A stretch of DNA of 64,000 nucleotides from Casimicrobium huifangae (lineage in GTDB: Bacteria; Pseudomonadota; Gammaproteobacteria; Burkholderiales; Casimicrobiaceae), in assembly GCF_009746125.1 (NCBI RefSeq), contig NZ_CP041352.1:2526436-2590435 (forward strand), written 5' to 3'. Made by a program: the position numbers and the translations under genes. The notes beneath the pieces were generated by a model that did not search any database, was not told the origin of the DNA, and was given only the letters and a program-made list of their open reading frames with translations. The stretch's first letter is position 1. Every line of letters starts with the position of its first letter. Shown here piece by piece: positions 11,625 through 39,287 of this stretch.

Positions 11625-13058
11625 CTAAAACGGACTATCCCCACCAAACTTCGGCCCGGCCGATTTGACTGACTGGATGGCGCCGCCCGGCATATAGGAA
11701 TCCGTGGCGGCGTAGTTTTCGAAGCGGGTGAACTCGCCGCGGAAGGTGAGGTTGACGGTGCCGATCGGGCCGTTACGCTGCTTGCCGATGATGATTTCGG
11801 CAATGCCCTTTTGCGCGGACTCCTGGTTGTAGACCTCGTCGCGATAGATGAAGAGGATCACGTCGGCGTCCTGCTCGATGGCGCCGGATTCGCGCAGATC
11901 GCTCATCACCGGGCGCTTGTTCGGGCGCTGTTCCAGCGAGCGGTTCAACTGCGACAGCGCAATCACCGGCACATGCAACTCTTTCGCCAGCGCCTTCAGC
12001 GAGCGCGAGATTTCCGAGATTTCGGTGGCGCGGTTTTCGCCGCCGCTGGCGCTCTGCATGAGCTGGATGTAGTCGATGATGATCAGGCCGAGCCCGCCGA
12101 CCTGCCGCGCCAGCCGGCGCGCGCGGGCGCGTAGCTCGAACGGGTTCAAGGCCGGCGTTTCGTCGATATACATCGGGCTGGCGTCAAGCTGCGACAGCGC
12201 ATCGGTGAAGCGCTGCCAGTCGCCCTCAGACAGCCGGCCCGTACGGAGCACGTGCTGGTCGAGCTTGCCGACCGAGCCGATCAGACGCATCGCCAATTGC
12301 AAGGCGCCCATTTCCATCGAGAACACCGCAACCGGCTTCTTGAGCTTCACCGCGACGTGTTCGCCGATGTTGAGCGAGAACGCTGTCTTGCCCATCGACG
12401 GACGGCCGGCCACGATGATCAGGTCGCCGCCCTGCAGGCCCGCGGTCATGCGGTCCAGGTCGGTGTAGCCAGTGGCGGTGCCGGTCACGTCGCTGGGGTT
12501 GTCGCGACGGTAAAGCTCTTCCACGCGATCAATCGCCTGTGCGGCGAGGTCCGACAGTGAAAAGAAATTCTGCTTGCTGCGGTCGCCTGATTCGGCGATT
12601 TCGAAGACCTTGCCTTCCGCCTCGTCGAGCAACTGCTCGCTGGTCTTGCCCATCGGGTTGAAGGCGGCTTCGGCAATGTCGGTGGCAACCCCGGCCAGGC
12701 GGCGCATCACCGAACGGTCGCGCACGATCTCGGCGTAACGGCGGATGTTGGCGGCCGTCGGCACGGCGTTGGCGATGGCCCCGATGTAGGCGAGACCGCC
12801 GACGTAGTCCAGTTTTCCGGCAGCGCGCAGGCTCTCCGACACGGTCACCGCGTCGGCCGGGTGGCTGTCCACTGCCAGGCGGTTAATGTGCTCGTAGATC
12901 AGCCGGTGGCCCTCGTTGTAGAAGTCCTCCGACTTCAGCAGATCCGCTACCTTGTCGATAGCGTTGTTGTCGATGATCAACGCGCCGAGCACCGATTGCT
13001 CGGCTTCGATCGAATGCGGAGGGGTGCGGAGCGCCTGTACGTCGGAATCGAGAGCCAT
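11625..13058 (-). CDS. dnaB: Replicative DNA helicase DnaB
   Basis: 477 residues from ATG 13058 (MALDSDVQALRTPPHSIEAEQSV). The upstream in-frame extension to 13160 has no family similarity. The N-terminal DnaG-interacting domain (PPHSIEAEQSVLGALI) is followed by a RecA-type core with Walker A GRPSMGKTAF, DYIQLMQ (Walker B), SLKALAKEL and the DnaB finger region LRESGAIEQDADV. It is the hexameric 5'-3' helicase of the replication fork. It is a housekeeping gene, separate in function from the respiratory operon upstream of it on the same strand. Confidence 0.97.
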   Translation of the reverse strand: MALDSDVQALRTPPHSIEAEQSVLGALIIDNNAIDKVADLLKSEDFYNEGHRLIYEHINRLAVDSHPADAVTVSESLRAAGKLDYVGGLAYIGAIANAVPTAANIRRYAEIVRDRSVMRRLAGVATDIAEAAFNPMGKTSEQLLDEAEGKVFEIAESGDRSKQNFFSLSDLAAQAIDRVEELYRRDNPSDVTGTATGYTDLDRMTAGLQGGDLIIVAGRPSMGKTAFSLNIGEHVAVKLKKPVAVFSMEMGALQLAMRLIGSVGKLDQHVLRTGRLSEGDWQRFTDALSQLDASPMYIDETPALNPFELRARARRLARQVGGLGLIIIDYIQLMQSASGGENRATEISEISRSLKALAKELHVPVIALSQLNRSLEQRPNKRPVMSDLRESGAIEQDADVILFIYRDEVYNQESAQKGIAEIIIGKQRNGPIGTVNLTFRGEFTRFENYAATDSYMPGGAIQSVKSAGPKFGGDSPF

Positions 13059-13107
13059 TCGACCGATTCTATCGGCGCCGGCGCCCTCGGCCGGCGTGCG
13101 ACGAGCG

Positions 13108-15051
13108 CTATGGGTGTGCGGGCGGTCGCGTGACGTGTTCGGCGCCCGAAAGTGCGGCACGCGCAGGCACGAACGCGTCCGAGAAGCATGCGTCGGCGCT
13201 CAGCCCGTGCGCCAGGAATTCTGGTACCGCTGCATCAACCATACGGACGGAGCCGCACACGTAAAGTTCATAACCAGCCAGACTCGGAAAATCAGTCAGC
13301 ATGGCTTCATGCACCAGACCGATCCGGCCCGCCCACTGATCCGCCGCAACCGGTTCGGACACAACAGGACTGAAATGGAAATTGGCATGTTGCCGCTCCC
13401 AGTCTCGCACGATGTCAAGCAGGTAGAAGTCGGCCGGTTGGCGCACACCCCAGTACAGCCACATGGGCCGCTGGACACCACGCAGGAACGCATCCTCAAG
13501 AATGCTCTTGACCGGCGCAAATCCCGTCGCACCCGCCACCATGAGAATGGGTGCGTCACTCTCAGACAGAGTGAAGCTTCCCAGCGGCCCTTCAAAGCGC
13601 AACGAGTCACCCACCTTCATCTGGTCAAAGACATGGCCAGTGAAGCGACCACCGACGATGCGGCGGACATGCAGCTCAATCACGTCGGCGCGTTGCGGCG
13701 GGTTTGCGAACGAGAATGCACGTCGCTGACCATCATCGAGCAGGATGTTGATGTACTGACCAGCCTTGAACGGCACACTCTGCCCATCAGTTGTAGCAAG
13801 CAGCAATCGCATCACATCTGGCGCGAGTGGCTCCATTGCCTCCACACGCGCAGAGTGCACGCCACTGGCAGCCGGTGCCAGCAGCGTTGCGGTGTCATCC
13901 AGTTCAATCTCAACGTCCGTCAGGGGCGTGGCGCAGCACAGCAGCGCTCGTCCGCTGTTGCGAGCGGCGGCCGGGAGCACGCGTTCCTGATAGAGGCCAT
14001 GATCGACTCTGCCATCCAGGACGGTACACACGCAGACGCCACAACCGCCGTTGCGGCATTCGAAGGGCAAGGCAAGTCCTTCGCGCAATCCGGCGTCGAG
14101 CAATGTCTCGCCCGGCCGCACGGCGATCTTCCGGGTGCTACCAGCTATTCTCAGGTGAACCGGCCCTGCTCCGGCTCGCACCGGTCGTCGACGCAGCCAC
14201 GGCAACACGGCGAGCAGCACACTGCTCCCGATGACCAGCGTCCACACGTAACGGGCTGGCAGGCGTTCAATCAGGGGCAACAAGGGCAACAAGAACCAAT
14301 CGAGATCGACGTTTGCAACCGCCCGCTCAAGCGCAGCTGGCCCCTGCTGGCTGACCACTGGTGCGAACATGGCCAGCACCAGTAGCGCCAGCAGAAGCCC
14401 TACGATGATCGGCCGTGGCGGCGCAGTCTTCGCCTTTGGTACCCGCTGCACATGTACCCACATCAACAGCAACACCAGCAGTGAAATGCCGATATGCATG
14501 AACGCCAGCAACGAGAAGAACCGGTCGTTGATGCTGCTGGGGTACATGACATTGCGGATCAGCGTCCCACCAAGGCCGGGTAGCCAGTCCAGCCATTCGA
14601 ACGACGTGACGATCACGAATTGCGCCAGACGGTCCCACGGCAGCATGTAGCCGTTGACGCCGGCCACATAGACCAGCCAGAGCAGCATTAGCCCTGTCAG
14701 CCACGAGAAAGCACGGAACCCGCTGAAACGGTCGAACGCGAAGTGGCGCACCAGATGCAGCAGCATGGTCAACACGAATGCATCGGACGCGTAACGATGA
14801 ATGCTGCGGAGCACGCCACCCGCGTACCACTGCCGGTTTGTCAACGCTTGAACCGAGAGATACGCGTCAGCGACACCAGTGCCGAAGAAGGCATACAGAT
14901 AGACGCCGCTGCCCGCCACAATCCAGAATAGAAAGAAGCTGATCGCCCCCAGATGGTAGAAAGGGTTAAGCCGATCACCAAAGAAGGCGTTGAAACGCGC
15001 CTCTACGGCCATGAAAGCCGCTTGCAGCGCGCGCTGCACCAATGCAATCAC
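13108..15051 (-). CDS. Cytochrome b - [2Fe-2S] ferredoxin - FAD/NAD(P) oxidoreductase fusion
   Basis: About 647 residues from GTG 15051, just after the upstream stop at 15057. Residues 1-290 are a cytochrome b/b6-type membrane domain with His85/His99 and His186/His200 as bis-heme ligands (both x13 spacing). Residues about 297-385 are a plant-type ferredoxin (Cys332, 337, 340 and a Cys at 372/373). Residues about 395-640 are a ferredoxin-NADP reductase module with RAFSF (FAD), GATGFAP and YVCGSVRMVD (nicotinamide). One chain could therefore carry electrons between NAD(P)H and membrane b hemes. It is the last gene of the overlapping operon. I know no characterised enzyme with this exact domain order. 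The direction of electron flow is inferred. Confidence 0.88.
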   Translation of the reverse strand: MIALVQRALQAAFMAVEARFNAFFGDRLNPFYHLGAISFFLFWIVAGSGVYLYAFFGTGVADAYLSVQALTNRQWYAGGVLRSIHRYASDAFVLTMLLHLVRHFAFDRFSGFRAFSWLTGLMLLWLVYVAGVNGYMLPWDRLAQFVIVTSFEWLDWLPGLGGTLIRNVMYPSSINDRFFSLLAFMHIGISLLVLLLMWVHVQRVPKAKTAPPRPIIVGLLLALLVLAMFAPVVSQQGPAALERAVANVDLDWFLLPLLPLIERLPARYVWTLVIGSSVLLAVLPWLRRRPVRAGAGPVHLRIAGSTRKIAVRPGETLLDAGLREGLALPFECRNGGCGVCVCTVLDGRVDHGLYQERVLPAAARNSGRALLCCATPLTDVEIELDDTATLLAPAASGVHSARVEAMEPLAPDVMRLLLATTDGQSVPFKAGQYINILLDDGQRRAFSFANPPQRADVIELHVRRIVGGRFTGHVFDQMKVGDSLRFEGPLGSFTLSESDAPILMVAGATGFAPVKSILEDAFLRGVQRPMWLYWGVRQPADFYLLDIVRDWERQHANFHFSPVVSEPVAADQWAGRIGLVHEAMLTDFPSLAGYELYVCGSVRMVDAAVPEFLAHGLSADACFSDAFVPARAALSGAEHVTRPPAHP

Positions 15052-15056
15052 CTTGT

Positions 15057-16502
15057 CTAGGCTCCCTGGCGCGCGCACTCGGGCTGCGCCAGTATCGCGC
15101 GGAGCACGATGACCACGAACAGCATGCCTCCGATGATCGCCAGCAGTCCGCCGAGCCCCATCAAGCCCATCCCTGCTGTCTCGCCGGCCGTTCGTAGCAC
15201 CTGGTCGGCGCCGGCAACCTTGCGCTGCACGCCATAGCCACCCGACCACACCAGCCCGATGATGTGCAGCAATTGCCCCAGACCGTAGATGTAGGGCTGC
15301 GCCACCGCCAGCCGGCCGCGAACAGTGCGATAGCCAAGTTGCGGCAGCAGGTGGTAGACCAGCCCCATGAACGCGAGTGTCACACCGACGATGCAGCCGT
15401 GATAGTGCGCCGGAATTTTCACGTTGTTGCCGTGGATCAGCGCACCGATGATGCCGCCCGACGCAAACAGCAACATGGAGGCGATCAGGGAGGCGCGCAC
15501 GGGTTTGGCTGCGGCATCTGGCGCACGACTTCGCAGTAATCCCTCAACCACAGCAAGTGTGATGGGAACAATCGCGAGCCCACCACCCAGTCGCATCGCC
15601 CATGTATGCAGGTTGCGATGCTCAACCGTGGCGATGTCGTACGCCAGATAGGCGTAGGGCGTCACGAACACAGCGATCAGGGCCAGCGCAAACATCAGGA
15701 CTGCAAGCCGCGGCGACAGCAGTGTAGGGGCGCCGGAGGCAGACCCGAGCCACAACCAGCAAACCAGCATCAGCAGCGTCCACACAAACTGCAGCGCGTG
15801 GCCACCGCCCCAGAACAGAATTTCGTAGTAAGCCTTGCCCACCAGCGAATGCGGCAGCACGAGATAAGACCAGACAAAGGCAAGCAGCGCGACGGCGGAG
15901 GCCACTGCCGCCGCACTGATGCCAAAACGCAGTGCCGCGTGGCCGTCGATCAGCGCCCCCGTGGCCGGCGCTGCCAACAAGGCCCGCAACACCAGCAGGC
16001 CGGCACCCGCTGCTACTGCGATCAACCCGGCAAGGAAGATTCGGTTGTCCAGCACCGGAATGTAATTCGCCATTACCGGTTGCGGGTCACTGGTAAAGGC
16101 GGCGGCAGCCATGGCGACAGTGCCGAAACAAGTGAGCACCATAGCCACCCAGCCCAACGCGACTGAGGCGTGGCGTCCACTAATGCTCCACATCAAACCG
16201 GCGATGGCAATAAACCACACCAGCACTGACAGATCCACGTGCACGACCAGCGCCGTGCGGAAGAAGTCAACGCCGGGCAGCAGCCCATTCACAACAGGCG
16301 TGCGCGACAGTACGAGCAGTATTGAAAACAAACCGGAGCCGGCAATCGCCAGCAAACCAAGCCATAGCCAAGCGCGCGCCATCGTTCGGCGGCTGTCCAG
16401 TGGCACCGGCAAGCTGTAGGTTGTGCGGGCGGTCCGGGCGGTTACGCTATGGCGTCGCGGCGCGCCAACGTCGTTGAGTGGCGGGTGGGCAATCGTACTC
16501 AT
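15057..16502 (-). CDS. Divergent heme-copper oxidase subunit I-like membrane protein
   Basis: 481 residues with about 12 hydrophobic segments. Heme-copper landmarks are a TM2 His in VVHVDLSVLVWF, a TM6 FWGGGHALQFVW (copper-type His but no Tyr four residues on), and a late AHYHG with a His-x-His pair for the two hemes. The usual adjacent copper His-His pair is not present as HH. EHRNLHTWA lies at about the right place. It may be a degenerate or NO-reductase-like member, or a heme protein working with the two cytochrome b proteins. It overlaps the preceding gene by 4 bases (ATGA). Confidence 0.75.
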   Translation of the reverse strand: MSTIAHPPLNDVGAPRRHSVTARTARTTYSLPVPLDSRRTMARAWLWLGLLAIAGSGLFSILLVLSRTPVVNGLLPGVDFFRTALVVHVDLSVLVWFIAIAGLMWSISGRHASVALGWVAMVLTCFGTVAMAAAAFTSDPQPVMANYIPVLDNRIFLAGLIAVAAGAGLLVLRALLAAPATGALIDGHAALRFGISAAAVASAVALLAFVWSYLVLPHSLVGKAYYEILFWGGGHALQFVWTLLMLVCWLWLGSASGAPTLLSPRLAVLMFALALIAVFVTPYAYLAYDIATVEHRNLHTWAMRLGGGLAIVPITLAVVEGLLRSRAPDAAAKPVRASLIASMLLFASGGIIGALIHGNNVKIPAHYHGCIVGVTLAFMGLVYHLLPQLGYRTVRGRLAVAQPYIYGLGQLLHIIGLVWSGGYGVQRKVAGADQVLRTAGETAGMGLMGLGGLLAIIGGMLFVVIVLRAILAQPECARQGA

Positions 16503-17026
16503 TGCAGGGTAATGCCGCCTTTCGCGGAATCAAAGTCGATAACCAGAATCTGGGTGGGCGCAAGGGTCACGGTGGCATCGCGTACATGCGCGAATCCCGA
16601 AACGCGGGCATCGTCGGCGAGGCGGACCTGCAATCGATGCTGGCCGGCCGGTACCTCAAGTCGGTGATACACGGAGGCGGCACCGTCGCGCGAGATTCCA
16701 CTTGGCAATGCCACGTGGCGATAGGCCAGCGCGCCGTCAACGTCAAGTTCCACGGTTACCGGCGAGCGTTCGCGCGGGCAACGCACCGGCGCCCGCATGT
16801 TCGGTGGCAACTTGGCGAGTTCGGCAGCACTCGTTTGATGGCAGTCGGACACTGGCTTGCCGTGGTGGCTGAAACTCAGCTTGACCAGTGCCCGATCGGG
16901 CGCCAGCGCCTGATATGACGGCCAACGGGAAAAGACGCCGATGAAGGCGATAAACAGGCCGTAGAAAAAGATTTGCCCGGCAATTGAGCGCACGCTGGTC
17001 GCTTCCCTTTTTTGGCTGCTGCTCAT
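16499..17026 (-). CDS. Small membrane-anchored protein of the respiratory operon, function unknown
   Basis: 175 residues: one N-terminal transmembrane segment (IFFYGLFIAFIGVFSRW, about residues 19-35), then a soluble domain with two Cys (DCHQ, VRCPRE) that should face the periplasm. No family is recognised with confidence. The start overlaps the upstream stop and the stop overlaps the next start (ATGA in both cases), so it is made with the two large electron-transfer proteins on either side. A structural or assembly subunit is the simplest guess. Confidence 0.75.
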   Translation of the reverse strand: MSSSQKREATSVRSIAGQIFFYGLFIAFIGVFSRWPSYQALAPDRALVKLSFSHHGKPVSDCHQTSAAELAKLPPNMRAPVRCPRERSPVTVELDVDGALAYRHVALPSGISRDGAASVYHRLEVPAGQHRLQVRLADDARVSGFAHVRDATVTLAPTQILVIDFDSAKGGITLQ

Positions 17027-18660
17027 TGCAGGTGCTCCGCTTTCTGTTCCTCGATACCGAGGCTCACTCGCCTGCGAAGCGCGGCGATGGCCGCGCGCAC
17101 GCGGCCCTCTTCGCCGCGCTCAGCCCAGACAGTTTCAACCTGCACGGCGGCAACGCCTCGGCGCAAGTGCGGTTCCCGATTGCCCGCCAGACGCTCCTCC
17201 GTCCACTGCGCCCCCAGCCGGAACTCGCAACCACGGGCGCGGCATCCGGTAACCACTACCGCCGCGGCGCCGTCACGCAATGCGTACTCGACAAACGACG
17301 GTGGCAGCATCCCGATGCAGGCCAGGCTGAACGGAATCGTGTGTGCATCGGCCAGACTGTCGATCCTCGCCCCCTGGTCGCAGCCGAAGATCACGACCGC
17401 GGTGTGAGGCTCTGTACCCGCCAGCTCATGCCGCAGGCGGGCGCGCAACTGGTCGATGGGTGCCTGCGGCAAGTCAATCCCGGTAACCAGCTTTTCGCTG
17501 CCGCGAAATGGTGTCGACGATGGGCAGGCACCGACGCAGATGCCACAACTGGCACACAGGTCGGTGTCGACCTGCGCCATCTCCCTGCCCTGCACGCCGC
17601 CAATGTGCGCGACCATTGTCACGGCGGCATAAGGACAGTCATCGAAACAGCGCCGGCAACCGTTGCAGTGCGCCGGATCAACTACCGCGACCGGTAGACG
17701 CTGCCGCCGGCTCAGCAGTGGCAGCGCCAGCAGTGCACCGATGCTCAATACAACGACCAGCCACAATACCGTCGGCGTGGTCGCGTACATGAGGGGATGG
17801 GGAAATAGCACGAACCAGTCAACCGGCAAACTCGCAGGCAACACCGACGATTCGGCGGGCGCCTGGCTGACCACCGGCGCCAGCACGGCAAGTAGCAGCA
17901 ACGAAACGCCAGTGCCAAGCATCAGCCGCTGTGGGGGTAGCACGTCGGCCCGACTGATGCGCTGGACGTGGAACCAGAGCCCAAGCAGCAGCGCCAGCGC
18001 AACACCAATGTGAACGAAAACAAACAACGAGAACAGACGATCGCTTACCGCATCGGCGGTCAGGAAGTTTCTTGTGAGTGGGGACGCAAAAATTGGCCAG
18101 CGATCCAGCCATTCGGCAGTGGCCAACGCCGAGAATTGGCCGAGCTGGTCCCAGTTAAGCCAGAAGCCACCGATGCCACTGCTGAACATGAAAAGCAACA
18201 GCAGCACACCCGTCAACCACGAGAACCAGCGGAATGCCCGAAAACGACCAAGCAGCCATTCACGCGCCAGATGCAGGAATGTGCACAGCACCATTGCATC
18301 TGCGGCGTAGCGGTGGATGCCACGCAGCAGTCCGCCGAGGGAACTGCCATCCCGCGTCAGCCGATCAATCGACCGATAAGCGCCGGTTGCCGACGTATCG
18401 AGCACCGCGTAGAGATAGGCACCGGAGACGCTCAGCAAAACAAAGAAAAAGACACCGAGTGCACCCAGGTGCCGCAGTGGGCTCTCCCCGGCGCCAAACA
18501 CGCGATCAAAGGGCCTGTCGAGACTGCGTACGAACCGCCGCCCCCACGTTTCCGCTGCGCCACTTTGGCCCTGCGGTGCAACGAGGACCGGAACAACCGG
18601 ATACTGCGTGCTGAAACTGCTATCGGGACGCACTCGCAAAATCGCTTTCCGAGCCACCAT
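17023..18660 (-). CDS. Cytochrome b - 2x[4Fe-4S] ferredoxin - MvhD-like fusion
   Basis: About 545 residues from ATG 18660, overlapping the sco end by 41 bases (an in-frame GTG at 18633 is an alternative). The cytochrome b domain has His116/His130 and His217/His231. The ferredoxin part has CNGCRRCFDDCP (from Cys332) and CASCGICVGACP (from Cys369). The C-terminal domain (about 420-520) resembles the delta subunit of methyl-viologen hydrogenase/heterodisulfide reductase (MvhD): FGCDQG, CIGMLPP, and VTGCRARGCEF. MvhD normally passes electrons between iron-sulfur partners. Here it is joined to a membrane cytochrome b. The partner protein is unknown and no hydrogenase gene is present. Confidence 0.87.
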   Translation of the reverse strand: MVARKAILRVRPDSSFSTQYPVVPVLVAPQGQSGAAETWGRRFVRSLDRPFDRVFGAGESPLRHLGALGVFFFVLLSVSGAYLYAVLDTSATGAYRSIDRLTRDGSSLGGLLRGIHRYAADAMVLCTFLHLAREWLLGRFRAFRWFSWLTGVLLLLFMFSSGIGGFWLNWDQLGQFSALATAEWLDRWPIFASPLTRNFLTADAVSDRLFSLFVFVHIGVALALLLGLWFHVQRISRADVLPPQRLMLGTGVSLLLLAVLAPVVSQAPAESSVLPASLPVDWFVLFPHPLMYATTPTVLWLVVVLSIGALLALPLLSRRQRLPVAVVDPAHCNGCRRCFDDCPYAAVTMVAHIGGVQGREMAQVDTDLCASCGICVGACPSSTPFRGSEKLVTGIDLPQAPIDQLRARLRHELAGTEPHTAVVIFGCDQGARIDSLADAHTIPFSLACIGMLPPSFVEYALRDGAAAVVVTGCRARGCEFRLGAQWTEERLAGNREPHLRRGVAAVQVETVWAERGEEGRVRAAIAALRRRVSLGIEEQKAEHLQ

Positions 18661-19606
18661 TGCCCAGACGACTGGCTTTGCCGCGACGCGTGCGCCGCCG
18701 GGACCACCACTCGCCGATGAAAAACCAGCACATGGCCAGTGCAAACGTCGCGCCGCCGGCAATCTCCAGGATCAACCCGTAGTCGTAGCGGTACTTGCCG
18801 GTCGTCGGGTCATATACGGTGCAGATGATGCGGATGCGGTCGATCACATCGTCGATACCTGCGTTCTGCGGCACCGGCGCGTTGCGCAACAGTTGGCGCA
18901 CCGGCTCGCCAATCTTGTCTGGCGTCACCCGATCGCCGTACACCTGCGAATAGATGGCACCAGACGCGTCGACCACCGTGACCGCGAGAACATGGTCAAA
19001 ACCTGCTGGGGTTTCGACATAGCTGAAGCCAAAGTCACCGGTGAGTGCGCCCACGATATCCGCAGGCGGGCTCAGGAAGTCCCAATTGGGCGCTGCGATG
19101 GCGTGCTGAGCGGCAAAGCTGCGCATTGCCTGTGGCGAATCAAAGGGCTGGTTGAACCCGATACTCACCACGTTGAATCGATCTCGCCCAACTGACGATT
19201 GCAGATTCTCCACCGCCTCACGCAGTGATCGGGTGTTGGTGGGGCAAACCTGAAAACAGCCGGTGTAGATGAAACTGACTAGCGTCGGTTTGCCGTGGAA
19301 GCTCGACAAGCGGACTGGTGTCCCTTGCCGATTCAACAGAGTGAAGTCAGTCGGCCGCTTGCCGATGACGCCTTGACTCAAGCGCAGTGCCTCGACCTGA
19401 TTCAGTGCAGGTACCGTGGCTTGCGGCGCGCTAGCGGCAACATCAGCGGCCCCAGTAACCATCGGCGTCAAGATTGCAAGCAGGGCAACCGCTCTCCGCA
19501 GCAACCGGTAGACAGCGCCCTGCACTTCGCCGGTGGACGTCCACAACTCACGCCCGGCGGCGATGTAATCTTCACCAGCAATGAGTCGCCGTCGTGGCCT
19601 TTTCAT
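18620..19606 (-). CDS. SCO1/SenC family copper chaperone
   Basis: 328 residues. An N-terminal hydrophobic segment (LLRRAVALLAILTPMV) is followed by a thioredoxin-like SCO domain with the copper site CFQVC (CxxxC) and a distal His in DHVLAVTV, and by an unusual C-terminal transmembrane helix (ATFALAMCWFFIG). SCO proteins load the CuA centre of heme-copper oxidases, and a CuA subunit II is encoded in the same operon. The ATG shares a base with the ctaB stop (TAATG). The first 35 or so residues are poorly conserved, so the true start could be later. Confidence 0.93.
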   Translation of the reverse strand: MKRPRRRLIAGEDYIAAGRELWTSTGEVQGAVYRLLRRAVALLAILTPMVTGAADVAASAPQATVPALNQVEALRLSQGVIGKRPTDFTLLNRQGTPVRLSSFHGKPTLVSFIYTGCFQVCPTNTRSLREAVENLQSSVGRDRFNVVSIGFNQPFDSPQAMRSFAAQHAIAAPNWDFLSPPADIVGALTGDFGFSYVETPAGFDHVLAVTVVDASGAIYSQVYGDRVTPDKIGEPVRQLLRNAPVPQNAGIDDVIDRIRIICTVYDPTTGKYRYDYGLILEIAGGATFALAMCWFFIGEWWSRRRTRRGKASRLGNGGSESDFASASR

Positions 19607-20502
19607 TAGCGAAGCCAGGCATCGACGCTGGCACCGACCAGTACGGCGCTTAACTGCACGATCGAAGCCAGAAACGAGCCGATGGCGGTCCCGCGATTAA
19701 CCGAGCGGGTCAGCTGCCATGCCCGATAGACAAAGTAAGTGCCCCCGGCGACGCTGCAAAGCAGATACACCAGCCCGGCACCAAAGGCGACCGGCAGCAA
19801 TGAACCCGCCACCAGCAGCACCGCGCTGACGAATACAGCCTGTGCGGCGCGCTCAGGCCCAACCACTACCGGAAGCATCGGAACGCCTGCCGCAGCGTAT
19901 TCGGCTTCGTTGGCGATGGCGAGGCTCCAGAAGTGGGGGGGCGTCCACAGGAATAGCGTCACCGCCAGCAGCCCGGGCAAAGCGCCAATCTGGGTGTCTA
20001 CCGCCGCCGCACCGGCAAGCACGGCAAAGCTGCCAGCAAGACCACCAACGACGATATTCAGCCAGGTGCGACGCTTGAGCCAGACCGTGTACACCACTCC
20101 ATAGAAAAAGGCCCCCAGAAACACAAAGATCGCCGCCAGTGGATTCAGCACTTGCCAGGCGGCCGCCACTGCGCCTGCGAGCATTGCGGCCATGACAGCC
20201 AGCCACAACGGACGACGGCGCAGCGCGCCGGTCACGAACGCACGGTTGCGCGTCCGCCCCATGCGGGCATCACTCTCGAACTCGTAGTACTGGTTGAAGG
20301 CGCCCGCGCTTGCCGAAGCCATCAGCACCGACATGGCGAGTACCAGCCACTGGCCAACACCGAGCGAGGCGGTCGGTGCCACCAGCGCCCCCACCAGCCC
20401 AGTGACCATGATCATCACCCCGATACGCAGCTTGAAGATGCCGAGCACCGAGCGAGCCAGGCGGCCCACTTCGCTGCTACCGGATGCCAGTGTGGTGCTC
20501 AT
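19606..20502 (-). CDS. ctaB: Protoheme IX farnesyltransferase (heme O synthase)
   Basis: 298 residues of the UbiA superfamily with about eight to nine transmembrane segments. The first Asp-rich motif reads NQYYEFESDARMGRT and the second region YGVVYTVWLKRRTWLNIVVGG. LWTPPHFWSLAI is typical of heme O synthases. It attaches a farnesyl group to heme B to make heme O. With CtaA encoded divergently at 23186, the cell can make heme A for the heme-copper enzyme of this operon. It starts 7 bases after the subunit I stop. Confidence 0.95.
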   Translation of the reverse strand: MSTTLASGSSEVGRLARSVLGIFKLRIGVMIMVTGLVGALVAPTASLGVGQWLVLAMSVLMASASAGAFNQYYEFESDARMGRTRNRAFVTGALRRRPLWLAVMAAMLAGAVAAAWQVLNPLAAIFVFLGAFFYGVVYTVWLKRRTWLNIVVGGLAGSFAVLAGAAAVDTQIGALPGLLAVTLFLWTPPHFWSLAIANEAEYAAAGVPMLPVVVGPERAAQAVFVSAVLLVAGSLLPVAFGAGLVYLLCSVAGGTYFVYRAWQLTRSVNRGTAIGSFLASIVQLSAVLVGASVDAWLR

Positions 20503-20509
20503 GGTATGC

Positions 20510-22210
20510 CTAGCTCAGGCCCCAGACCTGCGACAGATACTTCCAGTTGATGAAGTAGTACAGGACGAAGGACACCAGAAACACCATCGCCAGCGTGAAG
20601 GTACCTGGCGCCGCGAAACCGGCAGAGCCATAGGTTTGTACCACCGGCGCCGGCGTCGTTGGCGGAATCGGTGTGAATTCGCTGCTCTGGCGACCGGCAT
20701 CCAGGCGCTTGCCCCACAACAGCGAACCGACCGTGATGTAGATGTAGAGCGCGCCGCCGACAATCGCCGCCACGCCAGCGATGCCAACCAGCCCCATCAT
20801 CAGGTAAGCCGCGCCCGGCCACTCGTAGGCGAGCGCTGCACCATTAAACGCCATGTCCCAGTGCCGGCGGGACACACCCAGCGTACCGGCGCCCATCATG
20901 ACCAGACAGAAGAAGTACATCGACAGGCCGAACAGGTACGGCTGGTACTTGGCCAGGCCCGGTGCGATCATCTCGCGCTTGAACAGCACCGGAATCAGGA
21001 AGTAGGTCAGCGCCATGAACGACAGCGTCGTCCCGACCACCACCGTGGCGTGGAAGTGCCCCGGCACGTAGATCGTGTTGTGGATGATCATGTTGAGCTG
21101 TTCGGTGCCCATCATCACCCCGGAGATCCCGCCAAGGAAGCCGAATCCGATCAGCGAGATGAACACACCCGAGAACACCGGGTTACCCCACGGCGCCTTG
21201 CGCAGCCATTCGAAGAGCCCTTTGTTGAATCCTTTGGCACGTTGTGCCACCTCAATCGCACCGGGGATGGTCAGGCCATGGATCATCGACGCCAGTACTG
21301 CGAAATACATGAAGTAGCTGGTGTTGACCACCTTCCACGCCGTGCTGACACCAGGATCGGCCAGCAGGTGGTGCGCGCTCGCCAGTTGCAGAAACAGGAT
21401 GTAGAGCAGGAAGGCGCCACGACTGACACGCTCCGACATCGGGCGGGCGCCGAACGCAATGGCCGCGACCGCGTACCAGATCGAGATATGGGCCGCCACG
21501 TTGATCTGCTGCGACGAATGGCCGAATGCCCACCAGATGGTGCGGTAGATCAGCGGATCCACCTGCTTCACCAGACCAATCGACATCAGATAGGTCGGGA
21601 TCAGGATGATGGCACCCGAGGTAATCGTGAACACCGCAATGATGCAGGCTGTCACGGCGCCAAAAGTCACCAGCGGAATTGAACCCTGATAAGTCTTTTC
21701 ACGTTTGGCAACCACGAGTGTGCCGAGGAAGATGAAGCAGGCCATCAGCGCGCCTACCGCGAACAGGATCAAGCCCAGATAGAACGACGGCGCGGCCATC
21801 ATTGGCACGTAGGACGTCATCATCACGCTGGAGCCGCCCTGGAATACGGCGACGTTGTTCATGATCGCGCCTATCAGCATCAGCGCAAAGGCAACCCAGG
21901 CCAGCTTGGGTGTTGCCAATCGACAGCGCAGCAAAGTGGACGAACAGAAGTAGAGAACGGCGACTTCGAAAAAGATGATCCAGAAGATCAGCATGTCGAT
22001 GCCGTGGGCCGTCAGCACCTGGTAGAAGGTGTCGGCCTCCAGCCAGTGCACGGCGGGCCAGCGGGTCAGCACCACGCCAATGGCAAGGATGCCGCCGAGC
22101 AGCAGGAACACCACGGCGACCACGGCGTTGGTTTTGATCAGCAGCTCGGCGCTTGCCTCGAACTGCAGGCCCGATCGCGGGCAGGTACGGTAGGTTGTAG
22201 CGTTTGCCAT
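20510..22210 (-). CDS. B-family (ba3-like) heme-copper oxidase/reductase subunit I, active-site Tyr replaced by Gln
   Basis: 566 residues. Low-spin heme ligands are His69 (LTAHG) and His387. The high-spin heme ligand is His385 (VPGHFH). The copper-site ligands are His231 (AFGH) and His280/281 (SAHHLLADPG). The HHLLADPG and APWGNP stretches match the B-family (Thermus ba3 type). In that family the motif GHPIVY places the cross-linked Tyr four residues after the copper His. Here GHSSQQ puts Gln235 there. Loss of this Tyr is typical of enzymes that reduce NO rather than O2, but cbb3 oxidases place it on another helix. The neighbours are subunit II, a small subunit, ctaB, sco and ctaA. The substrate is undecided. 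Confidence 0.92.
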   Translation of the reverse strand: MANATTYRTCPRSGLQFEASAELLIKTNAVVAVVFLLLGGILAIGVVLTRWPAVHWLEADTFYQVLTAHGIDMLIFWIIFFEVAVLYFCSSTLLRCRLATPKLAWVAFALMLIGAIMNNVAVFQGGSSVMMTSYVPMMAAPSFYLGLILFAVGALMACFIFLGTLVVAKREKTYQGSIPLVTFGAVTACIIAVFTITSGAIILIPTYLMSIGLVKQVDPLIYRTIWWAFGHSSQQINVAAHISIWYAVAAIAFGARPMSERVSRGAFLLYILFLQLASAHHLLADPGVSTAWKVVNTSYFMYFAVLASMIHGLTIPGAIEVAQRAKGFNKGLFEWLRKAPWGNPVFSGVFISLIGFGFLGGISGVMMGTEQLNMIIHNTIYVPGHFHATVVVGTTLSFMALTYFLIPVLFKREMIAPGLAKYQPYLFGLSMYFFCLVMMGAGTLGVSRRHWDMAFNGAALAYEWPGAAYLMMGLVGIAGVAAIVGGALYIYITVGSLLWGKRLDAGRQSSEFTPIPPTTPAPVVQTYGSAGFAAPGTFTLAMVFLVSFVLYYFINWKYLSQVWGLS

Positions 22211-22222
22211 CGTCGGTTCCCC

Positions 22223-22762
22223 CTATTTCACGTAGACGCGGCCCACCATCGTGTGATGGTTGATGCCGCAGTACTCGTTGCAGACCACCGAATAGGTGCC
22301 GGACTGATTGGGTGTCACCGTCACGACATGCTCGAATCCCGGCACGATCTGGATGTTGATGTTGGCCGGCTGCAGCGAAAAGCCGTGGTTGTAATCGAGT
22401 GAAGTCAGGTGCAGACGATAGGTCTTGCCCTTCTCGAATTCGATGATCGGCCAGAAGCTCCACAACCGGGCGATCAGGTAAACGTCGCTACCGGGGGGCG
22501 GTGCAACAACCGGAATCTTGGCATCGGTCTCGGTACGCACGGTGTATTTGTCGACCACTGCCTGTGCCTTGGCGGTGAAGGTCTCCACACTGGTGCGATA
22601 GGTCTCGGTCGAGAGGTTCTGCTTGCCGTAAATGTGCCAGCCAACCATCATCGCGAACATGATCAGGCACCAGACCAGCGCGATCACGATCCAGGTGCCT
22701 TCAACGCGGTCCAGCGGGTGCTTCCACCACAGTCGCTCGGCCGGGGGCAGTATGGCGCTCAT
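22223..22762 (-). CDS. Cytochrome c oxidase subunit II with CuA centre
   Basis: 179 residues: one N-terminal transmembrane helix (WIVIALVWCLIMFAMMVGW, about 24-42), a linker, then a cupredoxin domain. The CuA ligands are complete: His126 (DYNHGF), Cys161 and Cys165 (CNEYCG), His169 and Met172. The length and single helix match B-family subunit II (CbaB-like) rather than the two-helix aa3 type. The domain would face the periplasm and accept electrons from a soluble donor such as cytochrome c or a cupredoxin. It lies 12 bases upstream of subunit I. Confidence 0.93.
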   Translation of the reverse strand: MSAILPPAERLWWKHPLDRVEGTWIVIALVWCLIMFAMMVGWHIYGKQNLSTETYRTSVETFTAKAQAVVDKYTVRTETDAKIPVVAPPPGSDVYLIARLWSFWPIIEFEKGKTYRLHLTSLDYNHGFSLQPANINIQIVPGFEHVVTVTPNQSGTYSVVCNEYCGINHHTMVGRVYVK

Positions 22763-22814
22763 ATCAACGTCCTTTCTTTTGCATTGGGTGGCGCATGGCC
22801 ACAGCAGCCGTCAT

Positions 22815-22970
22815 CTACTTCGCGACCGGCAAGGTGAGGATGTCGATCACCCCCCACAACGAGTACACGATCATCGGCACCATGACGCCGAAGAACAGCA
22901 ACAGGAATGGGTTGTCCAGCAGCTGCTGCATCATTGGTACCGGCTCGTTGTCATGTTGTTTGTCGCTCAT
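22815..22970 (-). CDS. Small single-helix subunit of the heme-copper enzyme (CbaD/subunit IIa-like)
   Basis: 51 residues from ATG 22970, with a very good ribosome site (CGGAGGA) upstream. The frame is open further upstream to 23087, but that part has no ribosome site. A short hydrophilic N-terminus rich in Gln/Met precedes one transmembrane helix (PFLLLFFGVMVPMIVYSLWGVI). Small one-helix subunits encoded next to subunit II are known in B-family oxidases (Thermus subunit IIa). It is the first gene of the operon. Confidence 0.8.
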   Translation of the reverse strand: MSDKQHDNEPVPMMQQLLDNPFLLLFFGVMVPMIVYSLWGVIDILTLPVAK

Positions 22971-23185
22971 AACCCATCCTCCGAAAGTGGTTGTGCGCCG
23001 CGCGTTCGGCCACACGAATGGGCGGCAGTTTGCCGTTGCCAACACTGCCAAGACATTGATCCAGAATAAGTCTGGCCCCCGTTTCAACGGTTGCTGCGCC
23101 AGCGCAACGTCTGTTGTTTATGTTCCGCCCGAGTCCAACCGCCACCACTACACTGGCCCGCGTTTCTTCGTGCCTCAGCCGGCCA
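22971..23185. promoter_or_regulatory. Divergent promoter region of the respiratory operon and ctaA, with FNR-like half-site
   Basis: 215 bp separate the first operon gene (leftward) from ctaA (rightward). TTGAT-CCAG-AATAA at 23056-23069 has one perfect half of the FNR/ANR/DNR consensus (TTGAT-N4-ATCAA) and three of five matches in the other. It overlaps the 15-bp palindrome CCAGAATAAGTCTGG (23061-23075). The site is weak and is only a candidate for oxygen or NO control. Confidence 0.3.
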
Positions 23186-24139
23186 ATGAACCCAGATCCA
23201 GCACATCGCCGTCTGTTGCAGCGCACCGCCATCACTGGCGCACTGCTTGTTATCTGCATCGTTGGGTTGAGCGCCTTCATGCGCCTGTCGGCCGATGGTT
23301 TGAGTTGTCAGCCCTGGCCGCAGTGCTACGCCGAGGCCATGCACGCGCAGCAACAGGGCGTCTCTCGCACCGTCACAGTGGACAACCATGTCGTCATCGC
23401 CCGCGTGTTGCATCGCCTGTTCGCAATCCTGCTTTTGCCGCTGACCCTGGTTCTGCTGTTCGCCGGATTCACCGCGCGACCGCAACGTTGGGCCGGGCGC
23501 TGGCTGGCTGTTGCAGCGCTTGCGGTTGTGCTGTTTCTCGCGGCGCTTGGCCGCGCCACAGCGGGGGCGCGATTGCCTGCGGTCACGCTGGGCAATCTGC
23601 TGGGTGGCTTCGTGCTGTTCGCGCTGTTCTGGCGCATGGCAACGCTGCCACCTGAGCCGGTGCAACGGCGCCAGTCGTCACCGTGGCACTGGCTGGCTGC
23701 GTTCGGGCTCATCGTGCAGATCGCGCTGGGTGCGCTGGTCAGCGGCAGTCATGCCGCGCTCAGTTGTCCCTCGCTGACCGATTGCCAGGTGATGACACCG
23801 CTTCCGTGGTCGAGCCTGAACCCGTGGCAGGTGCCGGCGTTCGATCCTTACGCCAAGCCCTGGTACCCAGAAGGAGCCTTGCTGCACTGGCTGCATCGCA
23901 GCGCAGCGCTGTTCGTGGCTTTCGCCGTCACCATGAGCGCACATCGTCGCGCAAAGTCCGGAGACCAGCGTGGGGCAGCACTGCTGATTGCACTTGTGCT
24001 CGTTCAGATCGGCCTCGGTGCGCTGGCCGTGGGCAACGGGTTGCCGCTATGGGCGGTGCTTGCTCACAATCTGACTGCCGCGTTGCTGCTGGCCGTCGCC
24101 GCAAGCCCAGTAGCACCGGCTACGCGCGTTGCCGCATGA
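23186..24139 (+). CDS. ctaA: Heme A synthase (COX15/CtaA family)
   Basis: About 317 residues from ATG 23186, with alternative in-frame ATGs at 23114 and 23120. There are eight predicted membrane helices in two four-helix halves. Heme-ligand His residues are in DNHVVIARVLHRLFAI in the first half and LLHWLHRSAALF in the second. RLSADGLSCQPWPQCY and LSCPSLTDCQ supply the paired extracellular Cys. CtaA oxidises heme O to heme A. It is divergent from the operon that contains ctaB, so both heme A genes flank the same promoter region. Confidence 0.93.
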   Translation: MNPDPAHRRLLQRTAITGALLVICIVGLSAFMRLSADGLSCQPWPQCYAEAMHAQQQGVSRTVTVDNHVVIARVLHRLFAILLLPLTLVLLFAGFTARPQRWAGRWLAVAALAVVLFLAALGRATAGARLPAVTLGNLLGGFVLFALFWRMATLPPEPVQRRQSSPWHWLAAFGLIVQIALGALVSGSHAALSCPSLTDCQVMTPLPWSSLNPWQVPAFDPYAKPWYPEGALLHWLHRSAALFVAFAVTMSAHRRAKSGDQRGAALLIALVLVQIGLGALAVGNGLPLWAVLAHNLTAALLLAVAASPVAPATRVAA

Positions 24140-33320: not shown

Positions 33321-35108
33321 TCAAGCCGTTCGCAGGACCCGATACAGTGGTGCAGTGCCGAAGCTCTTCGGCAGTTGCGTCTCACCGATGTACTCGCAAC
33401 GGAAGCCGGTCTCACCATTCACCGCCAGCAAGGCGGCAAAGGTCTCGGTCGCATAAATCTGGCCCGGCTGCACGATCGCCTCCAGCCGAGCGGCGCGGTT
33501 GACGTGCGAACCGTAGAACGTATCTTTCCGCATCACTGGGTCATAGGTTCGATAGGCTGGCCCGGCGTGCAGTCCAATACGCACCGTCGTATCTTGCGGC
33601 AGTCCCAGTGCGGTCCAGTCAGTTGCCCGGATGGCTGCAAGCACATTGTGGGCGCAGATGGCAGCATCGTTTGCGGAATCAAACACCAGGTACAAACCGT
33701 CGCCGCGCGTGTTGGCGTCGACAGGTGGCCGTTGCATTGCATCGAGAACACATCGAATGGATGTCAGAAAAGTATCAACGAAGGCCGGCGTGTACTCTTC
33801 GGGCATCTTCGAGAAGCCGGTAACGTCGGCAAACATGAAGGAATGTATCGTGCGGCGCGACGGCATCGGCTCGCCGGTCATCGGCTGGCGCTCAGCTTGC
33901 AGCGCCGGAAGTACTGTCGGCTCCAGTTCGATGCAGTCGGATGTCCAATCAGCACTGTTCCAGCGCGTCGCGGTCGCGACTGTGCCTCCCAGGTGCGACT
34001 CCGCTCCCGATTGCGCGACCACCAGCAGGTGTGGCGTAGTGGCGAGCTCACTCGCGCGGAGAAAAGCCATACCCTGAATTAGATCGGCGGCGTGCTGGAA
34101 CAGCACATCATCTCCCAGATAGCGCTCTTCGGTGGCATGGACGACACGCGTCGCGTTCGCCAGCACCTTCCGGTGCCGGGCCACCCATGCCGGGCCAGCG
34201 AATGTCACGCTGGTCTCGAGGTAGTCTGCAGCCGAAAAAGGCAACACAACGGTTGTCTGCATGCCTGCCTCCTGCATAGCTTCGAGAAACAGGATGTCGG
34301 CACCGCACGCAGCCTGACTGAATCCAACCACCTGCCCGTAGCCGTCGATCTTTTCGCGCAACCTGCGTGCAACGGCGTCCGCCATTGTCCCGGTGAATCT
34401 CGGCACTTCGCGATCCGGTCGGTCGAGCATGTGGCCGGTAAACGCAATCACCACTGGCGCTGGAACTTCGTTGAGGCAGTCATGGCTGCCGGGTACGGCG
34501 AGCAAATCGAGCTGCCTGCGCATGGATGCGACCAGGCCGTGCTGCCCTCGGGCAAGGCCGTATGCAGCCCGATATTCCGTCTGCGCTGCTGTGACGTCTC
34601 CCAGCAGAAGATGCGCTTCGGCTCTTGTGGCGCATGGCCACACCCCTGCCAGGCCAAGACTGCCGATGAGGGCAATGTGCGCGAACTGCCTGCAGGCTGC
34701 GTTCTCACCAATGATCCATGCCATCGCCGCAGCATTGATAGCCGCATAGGGCGTCACGTACTCGTCAAACGCTTTCTTGTAATGGATGAAAGCTTCGACC
34801 GCATGGCGGATGGCACGATGCTCGTCGACGGATTTGAGCGCGGCAAATCGCAGCTTGGAGATGCGGGCAGCGACACACAGTGCGTCACTGCGCAACGACG
34901 CGTCTGCGATGGTCGTCAGATCGAGACGTCCGTACCAGGTCTGTGCCTCGGCAAAGGCACCCATCCTTACACAAGCGAGGCATGCCAGATAAGCCGCTTC
35001 TGCTGCTGGTGGGTCGGCTGAATCGGAGACGCTGGCACGAACAGCGTCCAGCGCCTCAGCGTTCCGGCTTTGCGCGATCAAGTCCCGAATGGACTCAATA
35101 TTGTTCAT
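33321..35108 (-). CDS. TPR-like / SLOG-like / class III nucleotide cyclase protein
   Basis: 595 residues from ATG 35108 (ribosome site GAGGGAGA). Residues 1-210 are helical, TPR-like repeats. Residues about 217-375 look like a Rossmann-type SLOG nucleotide-binding domain: VVIAFTGHMLDRPDRE, GFSQAACGADILFLEAM, TVVLPF. Residues about 420-590 are a class III cyclase with metal Asp428 (FADVTGF) and Asp470 (TRGDG), YGSHVNRAARLE (transition-state Asn/Arg) and PGQIYATE. It should make cAMP or cGMP. SLOG domains with TPR-like regions are known from nucleotide-based conflict and signalling systems. The joint sensor-cyclase role is inferred. Confidence 0.82.
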   Translation of the reverse strand: MNNIESIRDLIAQSRNAEALDAVRASVSDSADPPAAEAAYLACLACVRMGAFAEAQTWYGRLDLTTIADASLRSDALCVAARISKLRFAALKSVDEHRAIRHAVEAFIHYKKAFDEYVTPYAAINAAAMAWIIGENAACRQFAHIALIGSLGLAGVWPCATRAEAHLLLGDVTAAQTEYRAAYGLARGQHGLVASMRRQLDLLAVPGSHDCLNEVPAPVVIAFTGHMLDRPDREVPRFTGTMADAVARRLREKIDGYGQVVGFSQAACGADILFLEAMQEAGMQTTVVLPFSAADYLETSVTFAGPAWVARHRKVLANATRVVHATEERYLGDDVLFQHAADLIQGMAFLRASELATTPHLLVVAQSGAESHLGGTVATATRWNSADWTSDCIELEPTVLPALQAERQPMTGEPMPSRRTIHSFMFADVTGFSKMPEEYTPAFVDTFLTSIRCVLDAMQRPPVDANTRGDGLYLVFDSANDAAICAHNVLAAIRATDWTALGLPQDTTVRIGLHAGPAYRTYDPVMRKDTFYGSHVNRAARLEAIVQPGQIYATETFAALLAVNGETGFRCEYIGETQLPKSFGTAPLYRVLRTA

Positions 35109-35169
35109 CTGCTCTCCCTCACGCTCGTTGCCGGACAAACCGGGGGTACCACTCGCGGGAGGCGGAACC

Positions 35170-35697
35170 TCACGGCACAGCAAACCGTCGTTGTGACTCA
35201 CAAAACACGCCACTTGCCCCGCGACCAGCATCGCCGCGGTCGTCTACAGCTGGCAGCACGGAGCAACGAACGGGGCTGACTTCATCAACCTTCTGCGGCC
35301 ACCACCGCCTGCTCTCTGTCGTCGCCATGTTCTGCTCTACCCCGTGACCGAAAGAATACATCGCTGCGAGCATCCGCTGGGCGGCGGCGTTGCCGCCGAT
35401 TGCCGCAGCGCGAAGCCACTTCGACGCAGCCCGGTGACGGGTCGGTCGCGACGGACACAGTGCGGCGCCATGCAGGTTTATGGTCCCTGCAAGCTCCTGC
35501 GCGCAAACATCGCCTGTCGCTGCTGCGGCGACATAGTGCGTAACAGCATCATTGAGTCTGCCTTCGAGATACGCTCAATCACCGTTTGCGCTGTGTGCAG
35601 GTTCAGCTGCTGCGGTTGAACCGCAAGCCAACGTGAACAGGCACACAGCCATTGTCATTGCAAGGTCAGGCAAATCCGCGTGTTTTCGACAGTCCAT
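35170..35697 (-). pseudogene. Sel1-repeat lipoprotein gene interrupted by a TGA stop
   Basis: From ATG 35697 the frame codes for a lipoprotein signal (MAVCLFTLACGS, lipobox LAC), runs to codon 40, meets TGA at 35575-35577, and then continues in the same frame without another stop to 35170. The distal part has a Sel1-like repeat (AASKWLRAAAIGGNAAAQRMLAAMYSFGHGVEQ). A signal peptide and its mature domain in one frame separated by a single stop suggests a recent nonsense mutation, or a sequencing error. Restored, the product would have about 175 residues. It lies between the cyclase and a small membrane protein gene. Confidence 0.7.
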
Positions 35698-35705
35698 GAC
35701 CGCTG

Positions 35706-36017
35706 CTAATACGTCATGTCGACGACGTTACCGCTGGTCGGCTCGGCGCGCTCCGGACGGGACACCGGCTCCGGAGCGACGGGCGTTGCTGCATCGGCCG
35801 GCAGCGGCTCGGGAACAGCCGCAGCAGCGGCAACATCAGCGCCACGCGGCGCCGTGACGTTCGACAACGGAGCGGTCGCGATGGCGATCAGCGCAAACGC
35901 GATGGCAGCAAAGCATGCGACAAAAGCAGCCATAACACTCAGACTTTCGCGACGGTCATCGCTTTGGGCGGTCGCTACGCCGGGCTTCAATTCGGTGCGA
36001 ATATTGCCGTTCAACAT
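35706..36017 (-). CDS. Small single-helix membrane protein, function unknown
   Basis: 103 residues from ATG 36017, with AGGAG seven bases upstream (the in-frame ATG at 36023 lies inside that site). One transmembrane helix (FVACFAAIAFALIAIATAPL) is followed by an Ala/Pro/Glu-rich tail that should be exported. The N-terminal NGNIRTELKPGVATAQSDDRRESL is cytoplasmic and charged. No family is recognised. The gene is in line with the Sel1 remnant and the cyclase gene and ends 8 bases before the Sel1 start. Confidence 0.65.
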   Translation of the reverse strand: MLNGNIRTELKPGVATAQSDDRRESLSVMAAFVACFAAIAFALIAIATAPLSNVTAPRGADVAAAAAVPEPLPADAATPVAPEPVSRPERAEPTSGNVVDMTY

Positions 36018-36110
36018 GATCATCTCCTGTTTTGCACCGCCTCAACATGAGGCGTTTGCGTGGAGACAATTTAGGTTTTCAGCGAGTCGCAGCGTTATCG
36101 CAAAGTCGGC

Positions 36111-36134
36111 AAAAAAAATGCCGAATATTCGGCA
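36111..36134 (-). terminator. Rho-independent terminator of the Crp-like gene
   Basis: Read on the minus strand, the palindrome TGCCGAATATTCGGCA (36119-36134) is followed by eight T residues (36111-36118). It lies about 55 bases after the Crp-like stop codon, so the regulator is transcribed separately from the membrane protein and cyclase genes. Confidence 0.85.
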
Positions 36135-36189
36135 AATTCAGTTGATGGTGCGCGAAGTTTTCAGGGCGCTGCACAACCCACAAGCAGCT

Positions 36190-36840: not shown

Positions 36841-37019
36841 TGGATAGCACCTTCGTGACACCGGACGCGCATCACACCGACCGGCAATGTGCAGAATTCT
36901 CCGCGATTTTTCTGCGGAATCGTCAATGGACAGGCCCTGCAGTCCGGCATATATTGGTTCGACGCGCGGCACTGGACGTGGCTTTGCTGCCTGCGACCGG
37001 GCTGCTGAAAGGGTGCGAG

Positions 37020-39257: not shown

Positions 39258-39287
39258 ATCGCGAAGGCTGTCTTTCCCTCGCAGCAC

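Follow-up and report, generated by a model that had tools for sequence, protein, structure and literature searches.

We analysed a window of 64,000 nucleotides (bases 2526436-2590435) of the genome of Casimicrobium huifangae, which is a single contig of 4.47 Mb (NZ_CP041352.1). The window carries a nine-gene operon whose catalytic subunit is very probably a nitric oxide (NO) reductase (NOR) of the eNOR type. The operon is a conserved unit, far from what chance would give. We see an even chance that it combines an eNOR (CbaD-like subunit, CuA subunit and subunit I) with helper proteins of its own for haem and copper, and with an arm that supplies electrons specifically to it. An earlier note on this DNA had proposed a nine-gene operon on the minus strand, and this was confirmed: every gene is present, all are read from 22970 to 13108, and the widest intergenic gap is 52 bp (22762 to 22815). 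Families were assigned to the nine proteins with Pfam and NCBIfam models and their cut-offs. P0003 and P0009 matched no Pfam or NCBIfam family above cut-off. The features, with positions in the window, are as follows.

23056..23069, minus strand: FNR/DNR-like half-palindrome TTATTCTGGATCAA, 86-99 bases before the CbaD-like ATG, with 2 mismatches to TTGATN4ATCAA
22815..22970, minus strand: CbaD-like small one-helix subunit (P0009, from its ATG); position kept in 59/59 complete named loci (defined below)
22223..22762, minus strand: CuA subunit II (P0008); COX2 27.3 bits (cut-off 22), with Cys161-x3-Cys165-x3-His169-x2-Met172 read in the sequence
20510..22210, minus strand: HCO1 (P0007), eNOR-type heme-copper subunit I; COX1 214.9 bits (cut-off 34.8)
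19606..20502, minus strand: ctaB/cyoE heme O synthase (P0006); cyoE_ctaB TIGR01473 242.1 bits (cut-off 210.3)
18620..19606, minus strand: SCO-family copper protein (P0005); SCO1-SenC 51 bits (cut-off 22.8)
17023..18660, minus strand: MvhD fusion (P0004), cytochrome b with two 4Fe-4S sites and MvhD/FlpD; Cytochrome_B, Fer4 and FlpD/MvhD domains; the open frame reaches 18762
16499..17026, minus strand: P0003, one helix and a beta-sandwich domain with invariant Cys 62 and 83; constant neighbour of the fusions
15057..16502, minus strand: HCO2 (P0002), heme-copper-fold protein; COX1 PF00115 46.1 bits (cut-off 34.8)
13108..15051, minus strand: FNR fusion (P0001), cytochrome b with plant-type 2Fe-2S and flavin/NAD reductase; Cytochrome_B, Fer2, FAD_binding_6 and NAD_binding_1 domains; the open frame reaches 15249

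The eNOR signature of HCO1

HCO1 aligned with ba3 oxidases across most of its length, and its best PDB matches were ba3-type oxidases. The fold is that of the B family, as had been proposed. The type has to be changed to eNOR, and the substrate is probably NO, judging from a Gln signature and the association with NirS. The haem ligands are His69, His385 and His387, and the CuB ligands are His231, His280 and His281. Gln235, four residues after the helix VI CuB His, replaces the cross-linked Tyr. Gln was found at the Tyr place in 96/96 aligned HCO1 rows (two of them, P0007 and L034, are the window itself), and also in the relatives from Defluviimonas, Thermus (two sequences) and Thermomicrobium. 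The CuB His triad was present in all 96 rows and the haem His in 95, the exception being a truncated row. Tyr was kept in seven other plasmid B-family relatives (Geobacillus, two Deinococcus, two Haloarcula, Methylobacterium and Burkholderia). In the tree, the oxidases split from the Gln group with a support of 1.000.

The eNOR family of NO reductases was reportedly introduced by Hemp and Gennis in 2008, and an eNOR enzyme of Rhodothermus marinus is said to have been described by Murali et al. in 2024. In PMC8756737, eNOR is identified by Gln at the Tyr place and is reported in many Proteobacteria, often mislabelled as an oxidase; Table A4 there gives Asn at this place for sNOR, and one conserved proton channel for eNOR. 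Two other assignments of HCO1 were rejected. An ordinary B-family oxidase would require the cross-linked Tyr where HCO1 has Gln. The operon layout suggested sNOR, but the residue is Gln and not Asn.

Nitric oxide context

In a sample of 150 genomes of the order, 15 carried close relatives of HCO1 (hereafter module genomes). Cytochrome d1 (NirS) was called by PF02239 at an E value of at most 1e-20, a model that also matches NirS relatives such as NirN. Its frequency was 14/15 among the module genomes and 24/135 among the others (Fisher test, P = 7e-9, kinship ignored). No significant link was found for NirK above cut-off (0/15 vs 17/135, P = 0.22) or for clade I NosZ (3/15 vs 9/135, P = 0.10). 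Of 95 fetched loci, 27 contained a nirS-like gene, and a Thermus plasmid relative of HCO1 also lies near nirS. The window genome's own NirS is ~432 kb from the operon. The eNOR signature and the NirS association together make an NO reductase the most likely terminal enzyme.

Four COX1-family genes were found in the window genome: an aa3 oxidase (CtaD 652 bits over a 443-residue stretch, below the cut-off of 670.75), the cbb3 subunit CcoN (733 bits, above the cut-off of 583), HCO1 and HCO2. Since the other three are aa3, CcoN and HCO2, HCO1 is the sole heme-copper NOR candidate in this genome (NO reductases outside the heme-copper class were not sought). The absence of cNOR and qNOR applies to the window genome only; in other module genomes, five proteins of the COX1 family (L155, L156, L157, L158 and L162) are unclassified.

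We also surveyed FNR/DNR-type palindromes before the CbaD-like gene. With at most two mismatches they occurred in 65/94 loci, compared with 275/1860 control windows, and with at most one mismatch in 28/94 loci, compared with 42/1860 control windows.

Conservation and co-inheritance of the operon

The named loci are the best 80 of at least 549 HCO1 relatives. A locus was counted as complete if it reached 9.5 kb or more past the HCO1 start and 0.9 kb or more before it, as 59 of them did. The remaining 21 were dropped for short flanks, including L060 and L082, in which an FNR fusion and no MvhD fusion was seen. Because only the best 80 were kept, the 59 complete loci come from close kin of the window. 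Named organisms with a closely related subunit I include Curvibacter, Piscinibacter, Acidovorax and Simplicispira.

In gene order, 38 of the 59 complete loci were identical to the window. The two fusions were exchanged in position in 11 loci. Only ctaB was lacking in three and both ctaB and the MvhD fusion in four, so that ctaB was absent from seven in all; the FNR fusion was lacking in two, and detectable HCO2 in one. The CuA subunit II gene adjoined subunit I, directly upstream, in all 59, and P0003 was likewise present in all. The two fusions were not always together (four loci lacked the MvhD type and two the FNR type); no locus lacked both. Castellaniella defragrans (L091) carries the FNR type only, and Acidovorax sp. 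210-6 (L084) carries both types. All 12 loci of 13-20 kb that were fetched from the order sample (L021-L032) had CbaD-CuA-HCO1, sco, P0003, HCO2 and one or both fusions. As a separate observation, a P0003-like gene was doubled in L026 (2973-5620) and L029 (10558-13210), with one copy after each fusion.

Co-occurrence of the fusions with the heme-copper genes, which the earlier note had put forward as a test, held in the order sample and in the named loci. In the order sample, the full-length MvhD fusion was found in 13/15 HCO1 genomes and the FNR fusion in 14/15, compared with 0/135 others for each; most of the others matched only the common reductase half of the FNR fusion. HCO2 was found in all 15 HCO1 genomes and in one other genome.

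It did not hold in full outside the order, where the outcome that the earlier note had named as a refutation, fusions without the heme-copper genes, was seen in part. In a sample of 398 genomes of the phylum, 34 had the MvhD fusion, the window genome included, and the cytochrome b profile likewise gave 34. Of the 33 other loci, 32 had P0003 and 14 had HCO1 within the fetched stretch. No HCO1 was seen in nine others whose upstream sequence covered 8 kb or more; for the last ten, the fetched stretch or the contig ends within 8 kb. A nirS-like gene was found in 15 of the 33 at 50% identity or more, and in nine at 65% or more. In four genomes of one family (L194, L204, L205 and L206; family f79), two MvhD-type fusions stood in tandem. 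A plasmid of Defluviimonas, an alphaproteobacterium, carries CbaD-CuA-HCO1-ctaB-sco-MvhD-P0003 without HCO2 or the FNR fusion (L115:13175-19921). A hemerythrin-family gene follows the eNOR block on this plasmid.

The cytochrome b fusions

The proposal that the operon encodes two distinct diheme cytochrome b proteins, each with a redox domain of cytoplasmic type, is borne out by both Pfam domains and invariant ligands. The four haem His and an Asp-Trp pair were invariant in 186/186 cytochrome b domains of both fusion kinds. In the MvhD fusion, the four haem His, the eight Fe-S Cys and the Cys of the FlpD part were invariant in 12/12 aligned sequences, and the MvhD/FlpD part of P0004 matched PF02662 with 36.8 bits (cut-off 22.3). 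In the FNR fusion, the four haem His and the four 2Fe-2S Cys were invariant in 10/10 aligned sequences. From the topology of cytochrome b, we infer that the fused redox domain is cytoplasmic.

In an alignment with the bc1 cytochrome b encoded in this genome, the Asp-Trp pair falls on the PVWY Qo motif; similarity in this stretch is weak (6.9 bits; PF00032 E value 0.24). On account of this alignment, the fusions seem to consist of cytochrome b6 and a remnant of the next helices, followed by the redox domain. With bc1 cytochrome b as the root of the tree, sequences of the FNR type grouped in a single clade (support 1.0), and those of the MvhD type did not. Because only the FNR type is monophyletic, it appears to have arisen later, by exchange of the input domain.

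HCO2 and P0003

The second heme-copper-like protein of the earlier note is indeed of that fold, and it keeps its haem ligands; two of the three CuB His are absent. Its predicted structure was a heme-copper fold (AlphaFold2 predicted template modelling (TM) score 0.86, mean predicted local distance difference test score, pLDDT, 81), with 3s8f as the best Foldseek match (TM 0.69) and an hhalign probability of 99.4%. Haem His88, His366 and His368 are kept together with His235, and the helix VII His pair aligns with Ala284-Tyr285. The loss of two CuB His led us to reject HCO2 as a second catalytic subunit. It may be a haem relay or a structural subunit without CuB.

Distant HCO2 relatives, 37-45% identical, were found in other settings (L119:8199-10340, L120:8150-10408 and L121:7900-9828). 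In L119, the genes that come next are ccmB, ccmC, one for a CcmF/NrfE-type heme lyase and dsbE; L120 is similar by eye only. Given these neighbours, the copper-less protein of L119 may be part of a cluster for cytochrome c maturation.

P0003 was predicted as one helix and a beta-sandwich (mean pLDDT 92), with two invariant Cys. Foldseek gave no PDB match for it at an E value of 0.001 or better. The label "FixH" is unsupported, as there was no family match.

Operon structure and neighboring genes

When the first possible start codon is taken, the two fusion open reading frames overlap the upstream genes by 143 and 193 bases. Homologues of the fusions align only from about residue 30-85 onward (mostly 60-85), and the long overlaps are thus an artefact of start-codon choice. 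A plausible start of the FNR fusion is GTG 15051; those of the MvhD fusion are ATG 18660, TTG 18639 or GTG 18633. In the region 12800-23500, no sigma-70-like promoter was found (2.5 expected), and there were nine terminator-like sites (10.0 expected). Both scans are weak evidence. As the counts were at or under expectation, nothing suggests that the operon is split, in agreement with the earlier proposal. The maturation genes for heme A and CuA had been considered complete; ctaB and sco are present, and no ctaA was found among the nine genes (it was not sought elsewhere).

The next gene downstream of the FNR fusion, on the same strand, is the replicative helicase gene dnaB (11625-13160); its longest frame and the fusion gene have 53 bases in common. 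Farther away (33321-40952), a gene with a guanylate/adenylate cyclase domain and TPR-S, a FecR-TPR protein gene and a TIR-domain protein gene adjoin, which could be a signalling or defence cluster.

Possible electron route and alternative explanations

In the reading that we propose, cytoplasmic NAD(P)H would pass electrons through FAD and 2Fe-2S to the diheme cytochrome b of the FNR fusion, and a ferredoxin-like donor would pass them through two 4Fe-4S sites and the MvhD domain to that of the MvhD fusion. The electrons would cross to the periplasmic side of cytochrome b and, directly or through the copper-less HCO2 and the anchored P0003, would reach CuA and then the haem-CuB site, where two NO would be reduced to N2O. 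As either fusion alone suffices in some genomes, the two might be alternative, interchangeable inputs, like plugs on one socket. Such a route would bypass bc1 and cytochrome c when NirS makes NO. The earlier note had spoken of a link "without a classical bc1 complex"; this was not supported, as the genome also encodes a bc1-type cytochrome b. Judging solely from co-inheritance and cofactors, a direct electron path from the fusions to eNOR seems to us about equally likely to be right or wrong.

Some observations weigh against the reading proposed here. The His387 column has Lys in two Thermus sequences, perhaps through misalignment. One module genome (G100, 87% complete) had no NirS match. The window's own FNR/DNR-like site has two mismatches, a level reached by ~15% of control windows, and is not significant by itself. 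The Thermus and Thermomicrobium relatives have HCO1 without fusions; because Thermus-type eNOR stands without them, the electron arm would not be needed for eNOR as such and would be an addition. Finally, the nine wider MvhD-fusion loci without HCO1 all came from one family (f87), three other loci of which do have HCO1, and seven of the nine had a nirS-like gene nearby. Because the wider loci keep P0003 and often a nirS-like gene, and HCO1 not always, the oldest unit may be the MvhD fusion with P0003, tied to nitrite or NO respiration, with eNOR usually but not always in cis.

It is also conceivable that eNOR is fed in the usual way by a periplasmic cytochrome c or cupredoxin, and that the fusions are co-regulated quinone-linked dehydrogenases or reductases in contact with it only through the quinone pool and bc1. 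The bc1 cytochrome b of the genome, the fusion-free Thermus and Thermomicrobium relatives, the Asp-Trp pair at the Qo motif place and the MvhD fusions near nirS without HCO1 would fit this explanation. We nevertheless consider it unlikely, given that no HCO1-free genome of the order sample has the fusions, that no cytochrome c gene is among the nine, and that P0003 always accompanies the fusions in the complete named loci. If that Asp-Trp pair, invariant and aligned with PVWY, marks a Qo-like pocket, the fusions might instead oxidise quinol there. One electron would then pass downhill to CuA and NO, and its partner would be driven by way of both b haems into NAD(P)+ or ferredoxin. The fused domains are of a low-potential acceptor type, which would fit such a bifurcation. 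The weak similarity in the Qo stretch argues against it, as does the lack of a Rieske protein among the nine operon genes in the Pfam and NCBIfam assignments (it was not sought elsewhere in the genome), and bifurcation appears quite improbable. If it were true, NO removal would pay for low-potential reductant.

CcoG, in cbb3 assembly, is a model for a reductase-type assembly factor. The fusions, HCO2 and P0003 might similarly serve in assembly, for instance as a trans-membrane reductase that holds copper or haem in the reduced state until it is loaded. The presence of ctaB and sco in the operon and of HCO2 paralogues in cytochrome c maturation clusters is in line with this possibility. However, P0004 had no FixG/CcoG-family match among the matches listed at an E value of 0.1, two different complex donors seem excessive for the task, and relatives manage without them, which leaves this explanation with a small probability, similar to that of bifurcation. 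We think it very improbable, slightly more so than either of these, that HCO1 is a high-affinity oxygen reductase instead of an NO reductase. Its B-family fold and ba3-type PDB matches would agree with an oxidase, and such a role was argued for the related Nitrosomonas sNOR in PMC6967387. But Gln replaced Tyr in every member examined, HCO1 is linked to NirS, and the genome already has aa3 and cbb3 oxidases.

Relation to known systems and implications

The Gln at the Tyr place, the CuB and haem His and the CuA subunit gene directly upstream are shared with the eNOR family, and the eNOR-type relatives of Thermus and Thermomicrobium are 44-48% identical to HCO1. Unlike their genes, those of the window stand beside two fusions, P0003 and a copper-less HCO2. 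The grouping of a CuA subunit, subunit I and SCO/SenC in one cluster resembles the sNOR cluster norSY-senC-orf1 of ammonia oxidisers, as given in PMC4940428; the Gln here differs from the Asn of sNOR (PMC8756737).

The fusions share the four-helix diheme core and the four His with cytochrome b6 and bc1 cytochrome b, and the PDB profile matched cytochrome b6 (6rqf, 110.6 bits) and cytochrome b. They differ in their fused redox domains, in a Qo motif that seems reduced to Asp-Trp and in having no Rieske gene in the operon. The C-terminal half of P0001 is like 2Fe-2S flavin reductases of the BenC/NqrF type (BenC 189.5 bits, below the cut-off of 430; PDB 5ogx 229.5 bits), but here the reductase is fused to a membrane cytochrome b. 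The PF02662 domain of P0004 recalls MvhD/FlpD, which work with HdrA-type proteins; here it sits on a cytochrome b, and no HdrA or hydrogenase gene is among the nine. NorVW flavorubredoxin also takes electrons from NADH to NO via a flavin reductase, with a soluble diiron enzyme. This sequence of NADH, flavin reductase and NO would be shared only if our interpretation holds, and the enzyme here is a membrane heme-copper protein.

eNOR itself is already known, if little studied. What is added here is the set of two cytochrome b fusions, P0003 and a heme-copper-fold protein without CuB. We found no title or opening of an abstract describing such fusions with heme-copper or NO reductase genes; the main eNOR paper was outside the search and may do so.

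The strong greenhouse gas N2O is produced when NO is reduced. In public records, the HCO1-type enzyme is labelled "cbb3-type cytochrome c oxidase subunit I". Because of this label, a NirS-bearing genome in which it is the sole heme-copper NOR candidate, such as this one, would be taken to have no NOR. If the fusions feed eNOR, NO reduction would draw cytoplasmic electrons independently of bc1, and a new role would fall to a heme-copper-fold protein that lacks the copper.

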